From: a virus
IMG/VR virus record: IMGVR_UViG_3300033142_001206
Location: 1-32,991 of that record
Length of the DNA: 32,991 nt
Strand: one strand, 5' to 3'
Under the pieces are notes generated by a model. That model saw only the letters and a list, made by a program, of their open reading frames with translations. It was not told the origin of the DNA and did not search any database. This document shows positions 5,103 through 30,531 of the stretch, one piece after another (positions within the stretch are counted from its first letter, which is position 1; the number at the start of each line of letters is the position of its first letter). The position numbers were made by a program, and so were the translations under genes.

Positions 5103-5783
5103 TTATAACCTCCCTTGAATTGCATCAAGCCTAGAATTTGCCGCTTGACCAAATTGAGTTACATCACTACCAAACAAGTTGCTTTGCCCTAACCCAGTAG
5201 CTACTCCGCTAATGCCTTGTTGAAGTGCTTGGTTTTGGTTAAGTATGCCAGTTGCGCGAGCATTACCACCAGCAATTAAGGCGTTACCAATATTGCCAGC
5301 GGTTTGTTGTCCAAACTGACCTATTGAAGTTGCGGCGCTTTGACCTTGACCAGCAACTTGACCTAGGCGGCCGAATTGATTTTGAAGATCTTGTTGAGCA
5401 AATCCAACTCCCTGCTGAACTAAAGCTGATCGAACATTGCCACCACCTAAACCGCCAATAGCGGAAGTATTACGCAATAAATTCTTTTGTGCTCGATCTC
5501 TTAAAAACTGCTGACCCGGCGATTGTTCCAAAGCAGCAAATGCGGCCGCTTGTGCTTCTGGACCGTTTAAACCTAGAAGATCTTGTTGGCTACCAATAGC
5601 AGCTTGACCAGCCTCTTGAAATGGCTGAAGGTTAGCTTGAGTAATATCAAACTGTCGTTGTTGTTCGGCAATAGTTGCATCAGTAGCTTTACCTTGTGCT
5701 TTAGCGGCTTTCTTTGCTGACTTACTTGCTGCCACACTACTAATTACAGCACCAGCGACAACAGCGGTTGCTATTCCTGACAT
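5103..5783 (-). CDS. DNA transfer protein, P22 gp7-like
   Basis: The 226-aa protein starts with a hydrophobic Ala/Val segment followed by a lysine cluster (KSAKKAAKAQGKA), then an ITQANLQPFQEAGQAAI region and many Gly/Gln/Ala repeats with NQFG-like units. This is the usual look of the gp7 family of minor ejection proteins. The strong ribosome site GAGGGGGATCT precedes ATG 5783. The start lies 13 bases inside the end of the SET-domain gene, which suggests coupled translation. In P22-like phages this protein helps form the trans-envelope conduit. Confidence 0.8.
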   Translation of the reverse strand: MSGIATAVVAGAVISSVAASKSAKKAAKAQGKATDATIAEQQRQFDITQANLQPFQEAGQAAIGSQQDLLGLNGPEAQAAAFAALEQSPGQQFLRDRAQKNLLRNTSAIGGLGGGNVRSALVQQGVGFAQQDLQNQFGRLGQVAGQGQSAATSIGQFGQQTAGNIGNALIAGGNARATGILNQNQALQQGISGVATGLGQSNLFGSDVTQFGQAANSRLDAIQGRL

Positions 5784-6619
5784 AGATCCCCCTCAATAAA
5801 TCTGTTTTTAATTACATCACGGTAATTAACGGTTATTTCTTCGTTTTCTTCAATATCTCTAATGGCTACAATTTCAGCGCCATTATCAGTTATTTTAATC
5901 TCAGCATTAGCAAAAACAGCATGATTAGAGTAACGCCCGGCTAAAGTTCTTTTATCGTCAATCCTTGCTTGGCAAATAACATCATTAATCAATAATGACT
6001 TAGAGCTAAACAGGCCTTTACCTTCAATAATTGAATCAGCAATATAAACGCCTTCTAATTCATCATTGATCATATCGTCTTTATTTTCCACTTGTTCAAT
6101 GATTTGCTCTTGAGTCATTCCAGATTCACAAACAAAATTAAAGTAATCAGCGCGGTTAACATCAACATGAAAGTTTTCTAATTCGCCAAAACTTTCAGCG
6201 GTAATATATTTTTGAATATCTTCTCCGCTATCACCATCAAAAGAATGAAATGTTATCCATCTAGTATCTTTATGAGCATAACCAGCACGTTTTTTACCTG
6301 ACATACCTTTGAATAAATTAAAGCCTGTTAAATGCTTAACTTCACCTGTATCAGTTGAAACGGTAATATCACCTTCAACCATAATATCAAAGTGATCAAA
6401 TTTATATAATTGACCAGTGATCACCGTTCCTTTTGGAATGGTTATTTCACGGCCATACATGCCGCCATGGATATGATGAAGAACAGGTATTTCAACCTGT
6501 GGCAATTCCTTTGCTATTTCTTCATACTCTGAAATTTTAGCGCGGTTAGATGTTTTGTTTTGAACACAAATATCATTAACAACCGACAACCCTTTTTTTT
6601 CATTTGCTGATTTAATCAT
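5771..6619 (-). CDS. Cupin-like + SET-domain protein (putative protein lysine methyltransferase)
   Basis: Two domains are visible in 282 aa. Residues about 45-130 look like a small beta-barrel (HHIHGGMYGREITIPKGTVI, then a KFDHFDIMVEGD segment), cupin-like. Residues about 188-270 carry SET signatures: EGKGLFSSKSL (199-209), RYSNHAVFAN (229-238, the NHxxxxN type site for SAM and the catalytic pocket) and RDIEENEEITVNY (254-266, the GEELTxDY-type motif with its tyrosine). SET enzymes transfer methyl groups from SAM to protein lysines. The gene sits among virion genes, so the target could be a virion or host protein; that is inference. It overlaps the gp7-like gene by 13 bases. Confidence 0.75.
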   Translation of the reverse strand: MIKSANEKKGLSVVNDICVQNKTSNRAKISEYEEIAKELPQVEIPVLHHIHGGMYGREITIPKGTVITGQLYKFDHFDIMVEGDITVSTDTGEVKHLTGFNLFKGMSGKKRAGYAHKDTRWITFHSFDGDSGEDIQKYITAESFGELENFHVDVNRADYFNFVCESGMTQEQIIEQVENKDDMINDELEGVYIADSIIEGKGLFSSKSLLINDVICQARIDDKRTLAGRYSNHAVFANAEIKITDNGAEIVAIRDIEENEEITVNYRDVIKNRFIEGDLCQE

Positions 6620-10953: not shown

Positions 10954-11046
10954 TTTGTGCACCTAGATTTAGCGGTCGAAAACCTGAACTTAGAACAGGC
11001 TGGTGCAAAACTTCAATTCTAAGCAATTACACTAAGGTAATTAACT
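10954..11046 (+). ncRNA. Structured RNA leader of endonuclease gene, copy 1 (unclassified)
   Basis: P1 is GCACC 10959-10963 with GGTGC 11002-11006. The joining segment TAGATTTAGCGGTCGAAA is 10964-10981. P2 is CCTG 10983-10986 with CAGG 10996-10999. Its loop bases CTTAGAA (10989-10995) are exactly complementary to TTCTAAG at 11017-11023, forming a pseudoknot. A last hairpin, AATTAC 11025-11030 with GTAATT 11037-11042, holds the Shine-Dalgarno AAGG just before ATG 11047. Copies at 14306-14395 (minus) and 28624-28718 share the layout with different helix sequences. A TATGCT box at 10941-10946 could be the -10 of its own promoter. It is too small and lacks the partners to be HEARO; no known class is recognised. 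Confidence 0.75.
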
Positions 11047-11538
11047 ATGATCACTCTAGATATATTAAAGAAAAACCTATCTTATGACAAATCAACAGGA
11101 TTATTTACTTGGTTAATATCAAGTAACGGAAGAATAAAAGTTGGCGATATAGCTGGAACATTAACAAAAAAGGGTTACATTCACATTGGACTGTCTGGAA
11201 AAATACACAAAGCACATAGATTGGCTTGGTTGTATGTTTATGGAGAAATACCAACAAACACAATAGATCATATTGACGGAAACCAACTAAACAATAAAAT
11301 TAAAAACCTAAGAAACGTCACTCATTCACAAAACTTAAAAAATACAAAAATGTACAAACATAATACCAGTGGGTTTTGCGGTGTTTATTGGAAAGAGCAG
11401 AACAAGAAGTGGCTAGCATCAATTAATAGCGAGGGCAGTTTTAAATATTTAGGCTTATTCGATAATTTAAGTGACGCTGTTAAAGCAAGAATCGAAGCAG
11501 AAAAAATATATGGATTTCATATAAACCACGGAAGATAA
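11047..11538 (+). CDS. HNH homing endonuclease with AP2 domain
   Basis: The 163-aa protein shares the layout of the 1128 gene: an N-terminal strand region, HNH_3 core (AHRLAWLYVYGEIPTNTIDH, IDGNQLNNKIKNLR) and a C-terminal AP2-like domain (SGFCGVYWKEQNKKWLAS, KYLGLFDNLSDAVKARIEAE). It lies on the opposite strand to the late operon, between the coat gene and the 114-aa head gene. The structured leader at 10954-11046 precedes it and a perfect terminator follows, so it looks like a self-contained mobile unit. TAAGG lies nine bases before ATG. Confidence 0.87.
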   Translation: MITLDILKKNLSYDKSTGLFTWLISSNGRIKVGDIAGTLTKKGYIHIGLSGKIHKAHRLAWLYVYGEIPTNTIDHIDGNQLNNKIKNLRNVTHSQNLKNTKMYKHNTSGFCGVYWKEQNKKWLASINSEGSFKYLGLFDNLSDAVKARIEAEKIYGFHINHGR

Positions 11539-11564
11539 AAAGGGAGCTATTAAGCTCCCTTTTT
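11537..11564. terminator. Bidirectional intrinsic terminator after coat gene and endonuclease
   Basis: A perfect 12-bp stem, AAAAAGGGAGCT with loop ATTA and its complement, has U-tracts on both strands. It stops the rightward endonuclease transcript directly after the stop at 11538. On the minus strand it sits 18 bases past the coat stop codon, where it would end or thin out transcription after the most highly needed late gene. Confidence 0.9.
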
Positions 11565-11582
11565 GTTTCTAGTTAAATGAAT

Positions 11583-13741: not shown

Positions 13742-14305
13742 TTATGGCTTGAACTCTGTAGATATACGCATTAGATAACCTTTTAATGGTTCTTTTTGTT
13801 GATGGGCTACGTTAGTTATTAATTTTGATTTGAAGTCTTTATATGCTTCACTGGCTTCTTTTGGTGTTGAAAAATAACCTAAATGCTTTTGCTTTTTATT
13901 TATTCTGCATCTTGCTATAAATTTATTCTTAACCTTATCAAAATAAACGCCTTTTGGGTGCTCGCCCCTTAATGATCTGCAATCCGTTAAAAGCTTGTTT
14001 ATTTCCTGCTCTATAAATAAGCACGATTCAGGAGAGTATTTTTTATTTCCTGTTATAGCTATATCTTTATCAAGGTGTTTGCCTTTCCAATCTTGTTTAA
14101 CCATCCAGTTTTTAAAGTTTGAGAAAATCAACCATTCATCACAAACGGTACAATCTTTATATGTTGGGTGAGTCTTATGATGGATTTTTGAATAACATCT
14201 TTTTATCATGCCATACCACCTCTTGTAGTATGGGCAGCAACTTACTTTTGTTGATTTGTTACTATCGTTAACACCAAAACCAAATACTAGTTTTTTTATG
14301 ATCAT
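13742..14305 (-). CDS. Homing-type endonuclease with C-terminal AP2 domain
   Basis: The 187-aa protein belongs to a phage endonuclease family with the pattern RWYGMIKRCYS, PTYKDCTVCDEW, F-NWMVKQDW, LDKDI, YSPESCLF. Two Cys pairs may bind zinc. A C-terminal AP2-like segment follows (GVYFDKVKNKFIARCR, HLGYFSTPKEASEAY). ATG 14305 is chosen over an upstream GTG because AAAGGTG then has correct spacing. It lies between portal and scaffold genes in the same direction, with its own structured leader. It is a close relative of the protein at 28719, and both carry the same leader type. Confidence 0.8.
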   Translation of the reverse strand: MIIKKLVFGFGVNDSNKSTKVSCCPYYKRWYGMIKRCYSKIHHKTHPTYKDCTVCDEWLIFSNFKNWMVKQDWKGKHLDKDIAITGNKKYSPESCLFIEQEINKLLTDCRSLRGEHPKGVYFDKVKNKFIARCRINKKQKHLGYFSTPKEASEAYKDFKSKLITNVAHQQKEPLKGYLMRISTEFKP

Positions 14306-14395
14306 AACTATCACCTTTAGTTATTTCACCGAAAGAAGTTTTGCGGAAAATAGTCGGTGTAACTATTTTTCAGGAGCAACCCCTATCCGCAGATT
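14306..14395 (-). ncRNA. Structured RNA leader of endonuclease gene, copy 2 (unclassified)
   Basis: Read on the minus strand, P1 is TGCGGA (14391-14386) with TCCGCA (14347-14342). The joining segment TAGGGGTTGCTCCTGAAA is 14385-14368. P2 is AATAGT (14367-14362) with ACTATT (14354-14349). Loop bases CACCG (14359-14355) pair with CGGTG (14331-14327), a pseudoknot. The last hairpin, AACTA (14322-14318) with TAGTT (14310-14306), has AAGG in its loop and ends directly at ATG 14305. Sharing ten of 18 joining bases with the other two copies while all stems differ argues strongly for conserved RNA structure. Confidence 0.78.
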
Positions 14396-14396
14396 T

Positions 14397-14402
14397 ATTA
14401 TA
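14397..14402 (-). promoter_or_regulatory. Candidate -10 box of endonuclease unit
   Basis: A perfect TATAAT on the minus strand lies just downstream of the portal stop codon. A transcript starting about seven bases later would begin at the first base of P1 of the structured leader, which supports a dedicated promoter. The -35 is weak (CAGAAT-like at 17 bp), so the call is tentative. Confidence 0.45.
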
Positions 14403-14410
14403 ACACTAAA

Positions 14411-16519
14411 TTAATTATTATTCTGTTCTGCTAATTGCTCACTAATAACAGCTTGATTTACTATATCGGCTGCTTGCTCACTGTTTGGCCCTGCATCTAA
14501 AGCCTGTTGACCTTCAACAATAATATCTTGCTGCTTAATTCTAATGTTGTGATCAGCTTGTGAAAGAGGAACGCCAGCTTCAATTTGTGTTTTGAATGTA
14601 TCAATCAATTTTTCATAAGCTTCAATAGTTGCTTGCTGAGTATCAACTTGAACCTGAAGCGTTTTAGCATCTTGGTTTTCAATGTCACTGATTAATTTTT
14701 CAGTTTGAATTTGAATGTTTTCAGTGATCGCCTGTTGTTGTGGATCAGGTTGTTGAGGCTTATCTAAGCCCATGTCTTTTATTTCTTGTTCAGTTGGTTC
14801 AATAGTGCCATTTTGAATCATTACCTTTCTAACACGCTTGGTTAGCTCTTTAGTTTCAAGTATTGGTAAATCTTTTGCCACTAAATCCATTGCCAAAGCT
14901 TCAAATTGTGGTGAGTTAGAAATTAAATCCATTATCTGCTGCGCTGACTCTTGGCGCTGAGTTGCAAAAGCTGGCCCCGTTTCAGTAACAACATCATATT
15001 TACCAATTGATAAATCATTAACTAAAACAGGTTTGCCCGTTTCTTCGTCAACAATTTCTTGGTTAACTGTATTTATTTCTACGTTCTCAGTTTCACCGTC
15101 TTGTTGCATGATGCGAACTTGGCGAGCTGTATCGTAAATTCTAGGGATTAAATCAACGAGTATCTCACCACAATAATCAATAGACTTAGAAAGGTTATCA
15201 GTGAATATAAATGAACCTCTATCACCTTGACGCTCTTGAGCAACAATAGCTTTACCGCTTTTAAGTTCAGGATTTACACCGATTGAAGGCGGTTGCATAC
15301 CAGTAACATGATAAAGATCCATGCTTGCTTGCTGTATTTGTTGTAAGAAAGCGCCTTGAACAGCAGGAGCGCCGCCACGCTGAGGAATGCCAGGCACTTT
15401 ATTATCTGGATTGAATAGCATGAAAGGACTGTTTTGATTAGCAAAATTTTTCAACTTTGTTTCATGACCTTTTGCTTGCGCTGGTGTTATCCATATTGGA
15501 TCTTTAGGCGTTAACGCTGCCGTTTCAATAACTGAGTTTGTTGCATAGTTATAGATTCGATTAGCATCTTTGGCAAAACGAACAATACCACGTGTATATG
15601 TTTGACTTTCAATATGAGCTTGACGGCCATAAACAGGAATAAGAGGAATAAATTTACCAGCCCAATCTTTAGGTCCCTCTAAAATTCCGCTACCGTCCAT
15701 TAAGTACATTTCAATTTTATGGCTTTTTACTTGGCGAGTTTTTTTAACGGTTACACCTTGAGCCGCCAATTCATCTAAAACGCTTTTCTCTTCATCACTG
15801 TCAATAACTCGACCATCTGATAATAAAGCAATATTTTTAGTAACTGGTGTTTTAACCCAATATTCAGCAACACGAACTGAATCATCACCGAACCAATCAG
15901 AACAACCAGAAGTATTATATTGCTCTTGTGACCATTCAGCCATTGGTGAGTCTGGAAAACGATCTTCGTGCTCGTCCTTTTGCATATCAACAGTAACAAA
16001 GGCAAACATTGCATCACGTTTGTCATATTCAATAGCAGCATCATCAAACCACAATGAAGTTGTAGCCGTATTTAATGGTTTGATTTTTATATCTTGGTCA
16101 AAAGCATCATCATCACTAAACTCAGTGATAACACGCCAGCCACCAAAACCACCGTTAACCACTTCATCAAAAGCAGTATCATAAGAGTTGCTTGCTTTGC
16201 TATCGCTTTCAATATTTCGGATTAACCCGGTTAAAGTTTTAGCTACATCTTCAGTAGCACCACCAGAAACAGGTCTAATTTTGATGTTAGTACGGTTTTG
16301 ACGTTGATCACCAATAAGTTGATCAACTGCGCCAGCAACACGGTTAATTGTGAATCGTGGGCGGTTCGCGCGTTTTTCCTTTGCACCATCATCCCACTGG
16401 CCATCTTCAGTTTGGGCAAATTTAATATCTTCAACGGCTAACTTTCTTTGATCTCGTTCTTTTTTTTCAATGCGTTCGAATCTTTTAATTGCGAGAGAGT
16501 GTATTTTTTCTTTACTCAT
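14411..16519 (-). CDS. Portal protein, P22 gp1-like
   Basis: The 702-aa protein contains typical podophage portal segments: RPRFTINRVAGAVDQLIGDQ near residues 60-80, RIYNYATNSVIETAAL and a MQPPSIGVNPELKSGKAIVA region, with Gln-rich coiled coil at the C-terminus. The dodecameric portal is the DNA entry gate and docking ring for terminase and gp4. ATG 16519 is chosen because GGAGG lies eight bases upstream and because it overlaps the TGA of the preceding endonuclease (ATGA). A start at 16534 would add five residues. Length is close to P22 gp1 (725 aa). Confidence 0.9.
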   Translation of the reverse strand: MSKEKIHSLAIKRFERIEKKERDQRKLAVEDIKFAQTEDGQWDDGAKEKRANRPRFTINRVAGAVDQLIGDQRQNRTNIKIRPVSGGATEDVAKTLTGLIRNIESDSKASNSYDTAFDEVVNGGFGGWRVITEFSDDDAFDQDIKIKPLNTATTSLWFDDAAIEYDKRDAMFAFVTVDMQKDEHEDRFPDSPMAEWSQEQYNTSGCSDWFGDDSVRVAEYWVKTPVTKNIALLSDGRVIDSDEEKSVLDELAAQGVTVKKTRQVKSHKIEMYLMDGSGILEGPKDWAGKFIPLIPVYGRQAHIESQTYTRGIVRFAKDANRIYNYATNSVIETAALTPKDPIWITPAQAKGHETKLKNFANQNSPFMLFNPDNKVPGIPQRGGAPAVQGAFLQQIQQASMDLYHVTGMQPPSIGVNPELKSGKAIVAQERQGDRGSFIFTDNLSKSIDYCGEILVDLIPRIYDTARQVRIMQQDGETENVEINTVNQEIVDEETGKPVLVNDLSIGKYDVVTETGPAFATQRQESAQQIMDLISNSPQFEALAMDLVAKDLPILETKELTKRVRKVMIQNGTIEPTEQEIKDMGLDKPQQPDPQQQAITENIQIQTEKLISDIENQDAKTLQVQVDTQQATIEAYEKLIDTFKTQIEAGVPLSQADHNIRIKQQDIIVEGQQALDAGPNSEQAADIVNQAVISEQLAEQNNN

Positions 16520-17175
16520 GCCGCTTTCCTCCATTGTTTGTGGTGTTTGCGTTTACCATTATATACGGCACACATATTGCCATCGCTTAAATTATTGTCA
16601 CGGCAAAACTCTGTTAGGTTATAGATATCAACTATCTGGTCTTCAGGATTTGTAAATCTATAGTGTTTTGCTTTTGCCTTGATGCTGTTATTTTTTGCGC
16701 TAACAAACATACAAGTCTTAGGTGAGTAAATCTTGTTGTCGTTAACCTTAATATCTTTATCTAACTCATATCCATCAATATAATTAACATTGAACCACTC
16801 AGCAAAAACTTGAAAGTTGTGCCATTCAACACAAACCGTACAGTCTTTATATGTTGGATGCTTATTATGATATTTAGGATCATAGCACCTTCTCAACATT
16901 TCATGCCACGTTGCGTATACTTTGGTTTTCGTATTTTTTACGCTCACCTTAGCATTACCAAGTCCAACAAACCCAATACCGTAAACGGAACAGTAAAGCT
17001 TATCCTTTACGCTGCCAGATCTTATATGCCCTGCCTCTACCGTGCTTTTATAGCCAGTAGCAATAAATTCTATACGGATATCGCAATGGTTGACGTACTC
17101 AATAATCTTAAATAAGCCACACCCATTAGCTTTATGGATGCTTCCTACTATCATATCATTTGGTATTTTATTCAT
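16516..17175 (-). CDS. Homing-type endonuclease inserted between terL and portal genes
   Basis: The 219-aa protein carries the same core as the 13742 and 28719 proteins (WHEMLRRCYDP, HPTYKDCTVCVEWHNF, LDKDI, YSPKTCMFV). It has an extra N-terminal domain of about 75 residues and, instead of AP2, a C-terminal helix-turn-helix-like module (YNLTEFCRDNNLSDGNMCAV) of NUMOD type. GGTGA lies just before ATG 17175, four bases past the terL stop. Its stop overlaps the portal start, so it is fully inside the packaging operon and relies on readthrough. No structured RNA leader is present here. Confidence 0.8.
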   Translation of the reverse strand: MNKIPNDMIVGSIHKANGCGLFKIIEYVNHCDIRIEFIATGYKSTVEAGHIRSGSVKDKLYCSVYGIGFVGLGNAKVSVKNTKTKVYATWHEMLRRCYDPKYHNKHPTYKDCTVCVEWHNFQVFAEWFNVNYIDGYELDKDIKVNDNKIYSPKTCMFVSAKNNSIKAKAKHYRFTNPEDQIVDIYNLTEFCRDNNLSDGNMCAVYNGKRKHHKQWRKAA

Positions 17176-17179
17176 ATTT

Positions 17180-18598
17180 TCACCACTCGCTAACAAAATC
17201 AATATCTTGTGTTTCACTCAGTATATCACCAAATGGAATTGCTTCACGCCTCATCATATAAGCGTAGCGAATAGCATCCCATAAATCATCGCGCGTTTTT
17301 ACTATCTTGCCTTTTTCGTCACGGTGATACTGAGCCATTTCGTCAAGCACTTCACGCAAACCAGCAAAAACTTTAAACTTACCTTTACTCATTAAATCAC
17401 GTATTTCATAAAGGCCAGCCTCAACACCGTTTGATCCATCTTCCCATGTAGCACGTTCATCAAGCATACTAAAACCAGCCTCGGTATAATATTGCATTTG
17501 CTGCTTACCGCTGCCTTTTTCAGTTTGAAGACCATCAAGCGGCCATGAAATAGGAATGCCTTTAGCCCACTTCTTAACAGTTCCCCACGCTTCATCAGGT
17601 GAGGTTTTGCGCATCTTCATGCCTTTAGTTACATAGAAAATGTCACTGTCACGATCCCACACTAATTGAATGTGTGCTTGTGGATGATCCCAGCCAAAAT
17701 CCATACCGCCGATAACATAAAAGTGTTTAGGTATTTCAAAAGCAGGGCAAGTAACAAACTCTTCGCTCAAGTCATATATTCGACCATGCCCAAGCATAGG
17801 CGTACCTTTTGTTCTCATATCGCGTTGATGTATTGGAAACGCTTCAATTAAATCTTTTTTTACTTTTTCTGACAAATGCGGCGCATCATCCCATCCTTTT
17901 TGCATAAAAACTTGAGACTCTCCAGGATCATCCATAAACTTAATTACTAGATCTGTACGTCCGTTCTCTGGTGTAAATGTTAATATACCCCTGCCACCGA
18001 TACCGCCTTCACCGGTTGCGGTTCTTGTTAATACCTGTGGGTATATGGTTTGGTCTTTTGGCTCTTCATCTACATGATACCAGTCAACACTATCACCCAT
18101 TAAAGCCGCTTGCCCTTGAGAATAAGACCAAAACTGACACGTTGAAATAGTTCCAGAAGAATGTTTGACCCTAACTTCTCTTAATGCGCCAGAAGTTCCA
18201 GCCATAGATTTGTAATCAACTATGTACTCAGGAGGAACTAAGCCTCCAATAAGCTTACCGTTACTTATTCTGCCAAATAATTCATGCTGAAGAAGATCTC
18301 TTGTTTTTTCTCCAGAGTAACCAAGCAACCAAGCCTTTATACCTTTGTTAAATTTATAGCCTTTCCATCCCTTTGGGTACAAACCCATAAGATGTATAGA
18401 ATCAATAAACGTTCCTGTGTATGTCTTGCCTATTCTGTTAGCTGCACAAAGACAAACAGCAGTAAACTCGTTGGTGTTTTCAATAAACTCTTTTTGCCAA
18501 CCGTAAAGCCCCTCAAAAATATACTTGTAACGATAAACATTTTTACGTCTCTTTTTTTCTTCAAGCAAAGCTATAAGTGTTTTCTTGTCATTACCCAC
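17180..18598 (-). CDS. terL: Terminase large subunit (ATPase and nuclease)
   Basis: The 472-aa protein has a Walker A-like loop CAANRIGKTY (about residues 51-60) and a Walker B with catalytic glutamate WYHVDEEP (173-180). A coupling motif TFTPENG and an RNase H-like nuclease domain beginning GGMDFGWDHPQ with a late DDLWDAIRYA aspartate motif follow. It packages DNA into the procapsid with the small subunit. Start is GTG 18598; AGGGG lies eight bases upstream, inside the 3' end of the preceding HNH gene. The longer frame to 18646 has no better signal. Homing genes flank it on both sides. Confidence 0.92.
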   Translation of the reverse strand: MGNDKKTLIALLEEKKRRKNVYRYKYIFEGLYGWQKEFIENTNEFTAVCLCAANRIGKTYTGTFIDSIHLMGLYPKGWKGYKFNKGIKAWLLGYSGEKTRDLLQHELFGRISNGKLIGGLVPPEYIVDYKSMAGTSGALREVRVKHSSGTISTCQFWSYSQGQAALMGDSVDWYHVDEEPKDQTIYPQVLTRTATGEGGIGGRGILTFTPENGRTDLVIKFMDDPGESQVFMQKGWDDAPHLSEKVKKDLIEAFPIHQRDMRTKGTPMLGHGRIYDLSEEFVTCPAFEIPKHFYVIGGMDFGWDHPQAHIQLVWDRDSDIFYVTKGMKMRKTSPDEAWGTVKKWAKGIPISWPLDGLQTEKGSGKQQMQYYTEAGFSMLDERATWEDGSNGVEAGLYEIRDLMSKGKFKVFAGLREVLDEMAQYHRDEKGKIVKTRDDLWDAIRYAYMMRREAIPFGDILSETQDIDFVSEW

Positions 18599-19067
18599 GA
18601 ACCAAACCCCTAAGTAAATTTGATAAATATTTAGGGTTAACACCAACTTCTTTAGCTAAAGATTTATATGTTTTGTGTTTCTTTCTTTCGATTAGGCTCG
18701 GTATATCTTCTTTTTTTATCTTTGTTTTACCGTTTTTACCATTAAAAAACATATTTGGTTTTTGCCCTAGAACTCCAAATGCATGCTTTTTATTGTTTGA
18801 TGCGGTTATCCATTCTAAATTATCAACATTGTTATTTAGCTTATTTCCGTCTTTATGGTTTACTTGAGGTAGGTTTTCAGCGTTTGGTATAAACGATAAG
18901 GCAACTAAACGATGAACAAAAAACTTTTTAGAATGTCCTTTGTTTGATAACTCAACCCTGTAATATCCTGAGTTGTTTATTTGTTTTTTTAGATGCATAT
19001 TAGTGTTTGTATTTTTAACTTTGCCATCTTTACTAATGTCATAGCATAAGTAATCTTTAATCTTCAT
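18591..19067 (-). CDS. HNH endonuclease (NUMOD4/HNH_3 type)
   Basis: The 158-aa protein begins with a NUMOD4-like strand (DYLCYDISKDGKVKNTNTNM). It then shows the HNH_3 core FFVHRLVALSFIPN, VNHKDGNKLNNNVDNLEWIT and a C-terminal helix-turn-helix (SLAKEVGVNPKYLSNLL) for DNA binding. It lies between small and large terminase genes and overlaps the terL GTG by eight bases. Its last codons contain the terL Shine-Dalgarno. GGAG lies about eight bases before ATG 19067. No structured leader is seen. Confidence 0.85.
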   Translation of the reverse strand: MKIKDYLCYDISKDGKVKNTNTNMHLKKQINNSGYYRVELSNKGHSKKFFVHRLVALSFIPNAENLPQVNHKDGNKLNNNVDNLEWITASNNKKHAFGVLGQKPNMFFNGKNGKTKIKKEDIPSLIERKKHKTYKSLAKEVGVNPKYLSNLLRGLVRG

Positions 19068-28623: not shown

Positions 28624-28718
28624 GTTTTGCCCTAGGTTTAGCGACTGAAAGGCTGGAAACGCTAGCCAGCTTGGGCAATACATCACTAGCGATAATTACT
28701 AATAGCGGAGTAATTAAT
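28624..28718 (+). ncRNA. Structured RNA leader of endonuclease gene, copy 3 (unclassified)
   Basis: P1 is TTGCCC 28627-28632 with GGGCAA 28673-28678. The joining segment TAGGTTTAGCGACTGAAA is 28633-28650. P2 is GCTGG 28652-28656 with CCAGC 28666-28670. Loop bases CGCTAG (28660-28665) pair with CTAGCG (28686-28691), a six-bp pseudoknot. The last hairpin AATTACT 28694-28700 with AGTAATT 28709-28715 traps GGAG before ATG 28719. A weak promoter (TTGAAT 28593-28598, 17 bp, TAATAT) lies directly upstream. Confidence 0.78.
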
Positions 28719-29324
28719 ATGTTTAAAGAAATACCAGCCAGTAAAATGTCATTGGCAAAGAGAAAGCCCGCCTATGGCGTAGGTATAAACAATGCCACTT
28801 ACCAAGTAACAAATAAGCACAAAGAAGTTTGCCCACACTATGCAAAGTGGTATGAAATGATTAAGCGGTGCTATTCCTCTAACGTACATAAAAAATCACC
28901 CTGTTATGAATACTGTTCAGTTTGTGAAGAGTGGTTAACCTTTTCTAACTTTAAAACTTGGATGGTAAAGCAAGATTGGCAAGGAAAGGATCTCGACAAG
29001 GATTTATTAGTAAAAAATAATAAAGTATATTCTAGCGAAACGTGTGTTTTTATACCTCAGCAAATAAATAAATTATTGACAGATAGAGCTATCGGAAGAG
29101 GGATGTTAAAACTTGGCGTTACCTTTAATAAAAAGAGTAGAAAATTCTATGCTCAATGTAATGACGGGAGCGGCAAAAACATTCACTTAGGTTCATTTGA
29201 TGATGAATACGTAGCTCACGAGGCTTATAAAAAATACAAGTATGCCTTGATAGAAAGGATAGCTAAAAGCCAACCAAGTAAAATAAAAGAAGCCTTACTT
29301 AGTTACAGGATTGGAGAGTATTAA
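28719..29324 (+). CDS. Homing-type endonuclease with AP2 domain
   Basis: The 201-aa protein is a close relative of the 13742 protein: WYEMIKRCYSS, YEYCSVCEEW, NFKTWMVKQDWQGKDLDKDL, YSSETCVFIPQQINKLL and a C-terminal AP2-like segment (GVTFNKKSRKFYAQCN, HLGSFDDEYVAHEAYKKYKY). A frame without a stop extends upstream to 28593, but ATG 28719 has CGGAG at good spacing and follows the structured leader. It is inserted in the rightward early operon in the operon direction. Confidence 0.8.
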   Translation: MFKEIPASKMSLAKRKPAYGVGINNATYQVTNKHKEVCPHYAKWYEMIKRCYSSNVHKKSPCYEYCSVCEEWLTFSNFKTWMVKQDWQGKDLDKDLLVKNNKVYSSETCVFIPQQINKLLTDRAIGRGMLKLGVTFNKKSRKFYAQCNDGSGKNIHLGSFDDEYVAHEAYKKYKYALIERIAKSQPSKIKEALLSYRIGEY

Positions 29325-30234: not shown

Positions 30235-30531
30235 ATGGCTAAAGCAGCAACAGCAAAAGAAAAAAGACACTTAAACAAAGTAGCAAACATTGGTTGTATT
30301 GTTTGTTTAAATCTTGGTTTAGGTGAAACTCCAGCGGAAATACATCATATTGGCAATGGAGCAATGGCAAAACGAGCGAGTAACTACGAATCAATCCCTT
30401 TATGTCACATTCATCACCGAACAGGAAATAATGGCGTAGCGGTTCATTCAGGGCGTAAATCGTTTGAAGCTAATTTTGGTACTGAGCAAGAATTACTTGA
30501 ACAAGTTAAGGGTATATTATGCGAACAATAA
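30235..30531 (+). CDS. Ref-like HNH nuclease
   Basis: The 98-aa protein has a zinc/HNH layout: CIVC (21-24), EIHHIG (35-40), IPLCHIHHRT (54-63), VHSGRKSFEANFG. This fits the family of phage P1 Ref, a nuclease that cuts DNA at RecA-made D-loops. Length corresponds to the catalytic domain only. It overlaps the RusA-like gene by 13 bases, which fits a joint role in recombination or branch processing. Confidence 0.75.
   Translation: MAKAATAKEKRHLNKVANIGCIVCLNLGLGETPAEIHHIGNGAMAKRASNYESIPLCHIHHRTGNNGVAVHSGRKSFEANFGTEQELLEQVKGILCEQ

Follow-up and report, generated by a model that had tools for sequence, protein, structure and literature searches.

Leaders of phage endonuclease genes belong to the int-alpA RNA family and may act as cis translational switches

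Endonuclease genes and their leaders in the phage record

The window, that is, the whole stretch of DNA analyzed here, is IMG/VR virus record IMGVR_UViG_3300033142_001206 (32,991 nt), in which three endonuclease genes are each preceded by a structured leader. Copy 1 of the leader precedes an HNH_3 homing endonuclease gene (11047-11538, + strand; PF13392, E = 6.9e-16), which lies antisense to the neighboring late genes; copy 2 precedes an AP2/HNH-type endonuclease gene (13742-14305, - strand; AP2, E = 2.8e-5); and copy 3 precedes an HNH endonuclease gene (28719-29324, + strand; phrog_953 HNH endonuclease, E = 1.8e-80). The proteins encoded after copies 2 and 3 are 49% identical, and no significant similarity was found between those encoded after copies 1 and 3. 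Three more HNH/NUMOD-type endonuclease genes (1119-1625, +; 16516-17217, -; 18591-19067, -) bring the total in the record to six, and no leader of the family identified below (int-alpA) was found before these three.

Core fold and covariation

About a hundred relatives of the leaders were gathered by BLAST, by core patterns in IMG/VR and GTDB genomes, and by searching genomes with an Rfam model; about half of the first IMG/VR pattern matches (L004-L123) were coding-sequence coincidences and were removed by a structure parse. In an alignment of 72 relatives, 93.4% of cells are paired, versus 63.9% in shuffles, compensatory changes occur in 13 of the 14 pairs, and the pairing score of 0.785 falls to at most 0.124 after a one-column slide. 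This covariation, along with a search by a covariance model free of window sequence (R2, see below), bears out the earlier note on this DNA in its claim of selected RNA structure before three phage endonuclease genes. The minimum free energy of single leaders is weak evidence for structure, with z values of 0.27, -1.80 and -2.31 for the three.

A base-by-base check of the three leaders confirmed the two helices and the pseudoknot described for each, all at the stated positions. The 18-nt joining segment between the two helices is indeed conserved, with the spacing TAG...T.GC....GAAA, one dot fewer than had been written, and it is not unpaired: in the 72-sequence alignment it holds a covarying 4-bp hairpin of the pattern GNNN-UWGC-NNNY, paired in 100% of cells. 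This hairpin is P2 here, so that the helix formerly called P2 becomes the third helix, P3. The Rfam model for the family (see below) likewise has a small hairpin here. The fold supported by this comparison thus has P1, P2 and P3 meeting in a three-way junction, and a pseudoknot joins the P3 loop (L3) to a strand after P1' (S4).

The core of copy 1 (10958-11007, +) comprises P1 (TGCACC/GGTGCA, 10958-10963/11002-11007), P2 (10966-10969/10974-10977), P3 (CCTG/CAGG, 10983-10986/10996-10999) and L3 (10987-10995), with the pseudoknot CTTAGAA/TTCTAAG. The core of copy 2 (14342-14391, -) comprises P1 (TGCGGA/TCCGCA, 14391-14386/14347-14342), P2 (14383-14380/14375-14372), P3 (AATAGT/ACTATT, 14367-14362/14354-14349) and L3 (14361-14355), with the pseudoknot CACCG/CGGTG. 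Copy 3 (28627-28678, +) is built likewise from P1 (TTGCCC/GGGCAA, 28627-28632/28673-28678), P2 (28635-28638/28643-28646), P3 (GCTGG/CCAGC, 28652-28656/28666-28670) and L3 (28657-28665), with the pseudoknot CGCTAG/CTAGCG. The three-way junction with its UAG and GAAA strands is present in all three copies.

Membership in the int-alpA family

A cmscan search of Rfam 15 matched copy 1 (10956-11024) to RF02996, int-alpA, at 37.6 bits (gathering score 35.8) and copy 3 (28625-28692) to the same family at 30.5 bits (E = 0.012), and returned no Rfam match for copy 2 on the minus strand. R2, which was built from other phages alone, hit exactly three places in the window at E<=1e-10, namely copy 1 (63.1 bits), copy 3 (51.2 bits) and copy 2 (40.3 bits, E 1e-10), with the next match at 12.1 bits. 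R2 also re-found 34 of the 39 bacterial loci that the Rfam search had supplied (E<=0.01), which indicates that the phage leaders and the RF02996 members form one family. By sequence comparison, the three endonuclease leaders are therefore members of the known int-alpA family, and the earlier proposal of a new RNA class is ruled out by the RF02996 match and the recovery of Rfam-type bacterial loci by R2. The likeness extends over P1, P2, P3 and the invariant UAG/GAAA junction, and the Rfam model likewise has a loop complementary to its own 3' end. The differences are that the Rfam entry for RF02996 is a 71-nt sRNA gene, and that its description includes neither an SD-bearing hairpin with a repeat of the pseudoknot strand in its loop (P4, see below) nor a role as the leader of endonuclease genes.

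The name int-alpA was found in one paper of the literature searched, as a table name and a passing mention, and a literature search for phage endonuclease leader RNAs yielded no matching description. The family was reportedly first described by Weinberg et al. in 2017. We know of no description of the architecture, leader role or endonuclease association presented here, the founding int-alpA paper lying outside the literature covered.

Two competing pairings of the P3 loop

The earlier description of the leaders, accurate for P1, P3 and the pseudoknot, had missed a further hairpin downstream, P4, which lies 0-3 nt beyond S4 and directly before the start codon. The loop of P4 carries a second copy of S4 and either includes the Shine-Dalgarno sequence (SD) or borders it, so that L3 would be able to pair either with S4, as a decoy, or with the SD. 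In copy 1, S4 (TTCTAAG, 11017-11023, +) pairs with L3 at 10989-10995 and duplicates the SD loop as a decoy; P4 (AATTAC/GTAATT, 11025-11042, +) has the loop ACTAAG, in which CTAAG of S4 recurs and which shares bases with the SD AAGG (11034-11037), and CTTAG of L3 thus has a partner CTAAG either at 11019-11023, in S4, or at 11032-11036, in the SD loop. In copy 2, S4 (CGGTG, 14327-14331, -) pairs with L3 at 14359-14355, and P4 (AACTA/TAGTT, 14306-14322, -) has the loop AAGGTGA, which repeats GGTG and itself serves as the SD, so that CACC of L3 could take GGTG in S4 or in the SD loop. In copy 3, S4 (CTAGCG, 28686-28691, +) pairs with L3 at 28660-28665, and P4 (28693-28716, +), with the arms TAATTACT and AGTAATTA around the loop AATAGCGG, repeats TAGCG in that loop next to the SD GGAG (28707-28710), giving CGCTA of L3 the same choice.

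Across the family, with the tail regions (S4, SD and P4) matched by coordinates rather than on a phylogeny and some members picked by sequence pattern, L3 is complementary to the S4 region at z values of about 18-18.9 and to the SD region at about 15-17, in each case with 0 of 5000 permutations of L3 among members reaching the observed value, whereas control regions (coding and upstream) gave z values of -0.6 to 2.0. Sixteen members without any common L3 4-mer still gave z values of 9.0 (S4) and 7.8 (SD). At least 4 bp with both sites can be formed in 78 of 82 members (permutation mean 30.8, maximum 46), and the P4 arms co-vary, each arm's own partner beating permuted partners (z 9.9). The 23 members found via the Rfam model, a set that is largely but not wholly independent because the core pattern had already led to the genomes of a few of them, gave z values of 4.4, 5.1 and 4.5 in the L3:S4, L3:SD and P4 tests (each 0/5000). 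Both predicted pairings of L3, and P4 itself, are thus supported by comparison among members.

The two pairings draw on largely the same L3 nucleotides (mean overlap 86%), which would make L3:S4 and L3:SD mutually exclusive; P4 could form in both states. The L3:SD pairings lie mostly at -16 to -6, and their mean energy is -6.0 kcal/mol, versus -2.9 kcal/mol for S4. In the two window copies that were computed, the S4 pairing is the stronger, opposite to the family mean.

Distribution and downstream genes

Searching with the Rfam model gave matches in 40 of the 369 genomes from one class and in none of 14 controls, R2 gave matches in 12 of the 199 genomes from the Rhodopirellula class, and a BLAST comparison of a related phage leader with E. 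coli genomes gave no match. Three phage leaders beyond the first model (L003, L127 and L256) score 37-41 bits and stand directly before an endonuclease-type gene. The cis position is likewise supported by comparison, the start codon following P1' by 27-44 nt in 79 of 83 non-redundant members. In Vibrio phage 1.211.A, the annotated ATG of NVP1211A_32 (L256:1371-1464) falls within the promoter/leader, and an ATG some 95 nt further on marks the end of the leader model; Shewanella X14 (L124:2495) has a similarly early annotated start.

Among 64 viral downstream proteins, HNH_3 (23) and AP2 (14) are the leading domains, with NUMOD, HNH, endonuclease VII, GIY-YIG, helicases, DnaB and DUF1376 as rarer ones, and up to 32 of the proteins match one HNH PHROG. 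Betaproteobacterial copies of the RNA are often located downstream of an integrase-like gene and ahead of ORFs of unassigned family, and an integrase-like ORF lies directly upstream of the RNA in two loci (L183 and L208); in Rhodopirellula it is found upstream of an integrase. The neighbors of the window copies are phage structural and endonuclease genes, not an integrase. In a planctomycete genome (L263:1509), an int-alpA-like leader precedes an ORF that resembles a serine recombinase by eye.

Promoter and mobility as a unit

Across the family, TATAAT-like boxes are most frequent 16-20 nt ahead of the core (44 occurrences, versus at most 15 in shuffles), which places the transcription start near P1; no -35 peak was found in the family-wide upstream count. 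The promoter of copy 2 is clear (TGTTATAAT, 14405-14397), with a TATAAT box at 14397-14402 (-), 16 nt before the core and within the family-wide peak at -20 to -16, and a TG before it (extended -10), and the -10 boxes of copies 1 and 3 are weak. Betaproteobacterial copies, which have no clear -10 box, may rely on read-through.

In Vibrio phage PVA8, a cassette lies antisense beside rIIA at a site that is empty in KVP40: alignment of the left flanks stops at the -10 box, 17 nt ahead of the core C, the right-flank alignment restarts 853 nt later, and the insert is bordered by a 17-nt near-repeat. In addition, X14 and 1.211.A carry different leaders and endonuclease genes at one site after an exonuclease gene, where 1.184.A lacks both. 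The sites left vacant in KVP40 and other phages show joint insertion, and this comparison supports mobility of promoter, leader and endonuclease gene as one unit. Many free-standing endonuclease genes of T4 have no promoter of their own, whereas many int-alpA cassettes have a -10 box. If the leader is a cis switch of the kind proposed below, homing endonuclease cassettes would be able to move with their own promoter and RNA-based control included.

A putative translational switch

The predicted sequestration of the SD by a covarying alternative pairing, by which a cis translational regulator would be recognized, was found on comparative evidence, and we propose that int-alpA probably controls the translation of mobile-element genes in cis, as a switch. 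The RNA would start at or just before P1, in many phage copies from its own promoter, and fold into the three-way junction, exposing L3, an anti-SD-like strand that could pair with one of two partners at a time. Pairing of L3 with S4, the decoy just after P1', would form the pseudoknot and release the SD (ON), and pairing of L3 with the P4 loop would mask the SD through a loop-loop interaction and block ribosome binding (OFF); that switching occurs, and which state is ON, we infer. The conserved junction (UAG, U.GC and GAAA) is the likely site at which a common trigger would bias the choice. A loop-loop (kissing) interaction is also proposed as the regulatory event in the guanidine-II riboswitch (PMC9094411), which bears no sequence or topological relation to int-alpA. 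More tentatively, int-alpA might be a translational riboswitch gated by a ligand or host factor, with the SD-loop decoy as its expression platform, that times DNA-cutting and DNA-rearranging proteins across phages and integrative elements; among the marks of a metabolite-binding riboswitch, the one observed is the conserved junction.

It is rather unlikely that the leader merely sets a constant low level of translation, with the SD hidden in P4 and under L3, S4 simply competing and nothing being sensed. Such an arrangement has precedent in T4-like phages, where the homing endonuclease genes I-TevI, segB and mobE have their ribosome-binding sites sequestered in hairpins (PMC2988022), so that RNA structure hides the SD as proposed here, and no ligand or partner was identified in this analysis. 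However, the T4-type structures are plain hairpins whose effect is lifted by a late promoter located within them (PMC2988022), not a three-way junction with two competing pairings, and a constant brake needs neither an invariant junction nor an SD-loop decoy kept in register with L3. Repression of translation by the encoded protein, bound to its own leader, is improbable: I-TevI does autoregulate, at the DNA level (PMC2988022), and the leaders travel with their genes, but the core stands before two unrelated endonuclease families in the window alone and elsewhere before endonuclease VII, GIY-YIG, helicases, DnaB, integrase and unknown ORFs. The occurrence of one RNA upstream of so many unrelated proteins speaks against the gene product as the trigger.

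There is very little to recommend a trans-acting small RNA with L3 as its seed, even though the Rfam type line for RF02996 reads 'Gene; sRNA' and an anti-SD-like loop could pair with other mRNAs, since L3 co-varies with its own SD and the start codon keeps a fixed distance; these comparisons favor a cis leader. A self-cleaving ribozyme, which the earlier note had allowed for, is hardly credible: the order P1-CUA-P2-GAAA-P3-P1' resembles the type I hammerhead in its helices round a three-way junction and its GAAA strand, but members have CUA in place of the catalytic CUGANGA strand and no Rfam ribozyme family matches at E<=1.

With the cis translational switch as the preferred reading, an orphan RNA family filed as an sRNA gains a testable function, in which a duplicated SD strand would control genes for DNA-cutting or DNA-moving proteins. 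As one RNA core is involved, the trigger would be common to phages of many hosts and to integrative elements of Proteobacteria and Planctomycetes, which makes the search for it concrete.

Other features of the phage record

A strong inverted repeat (AAAGGGAGCT..AGCTCCCTTT) at 11538-11580, where the endonuclease and coat genes converge, is likely a bidirectional terminator, and a SNORA22 match at 11443-11576 was rejected as a chance match over this terminator-like repeat. A gene for a SET-domain protein (5774-6619, -; PF00856, E = 2.5e-7) lies beside structural genes, and a Ref-like RecA-dependent nuclease (30235-30528, +; PF16786, E = 7.9e-15) is encoded in the early region.
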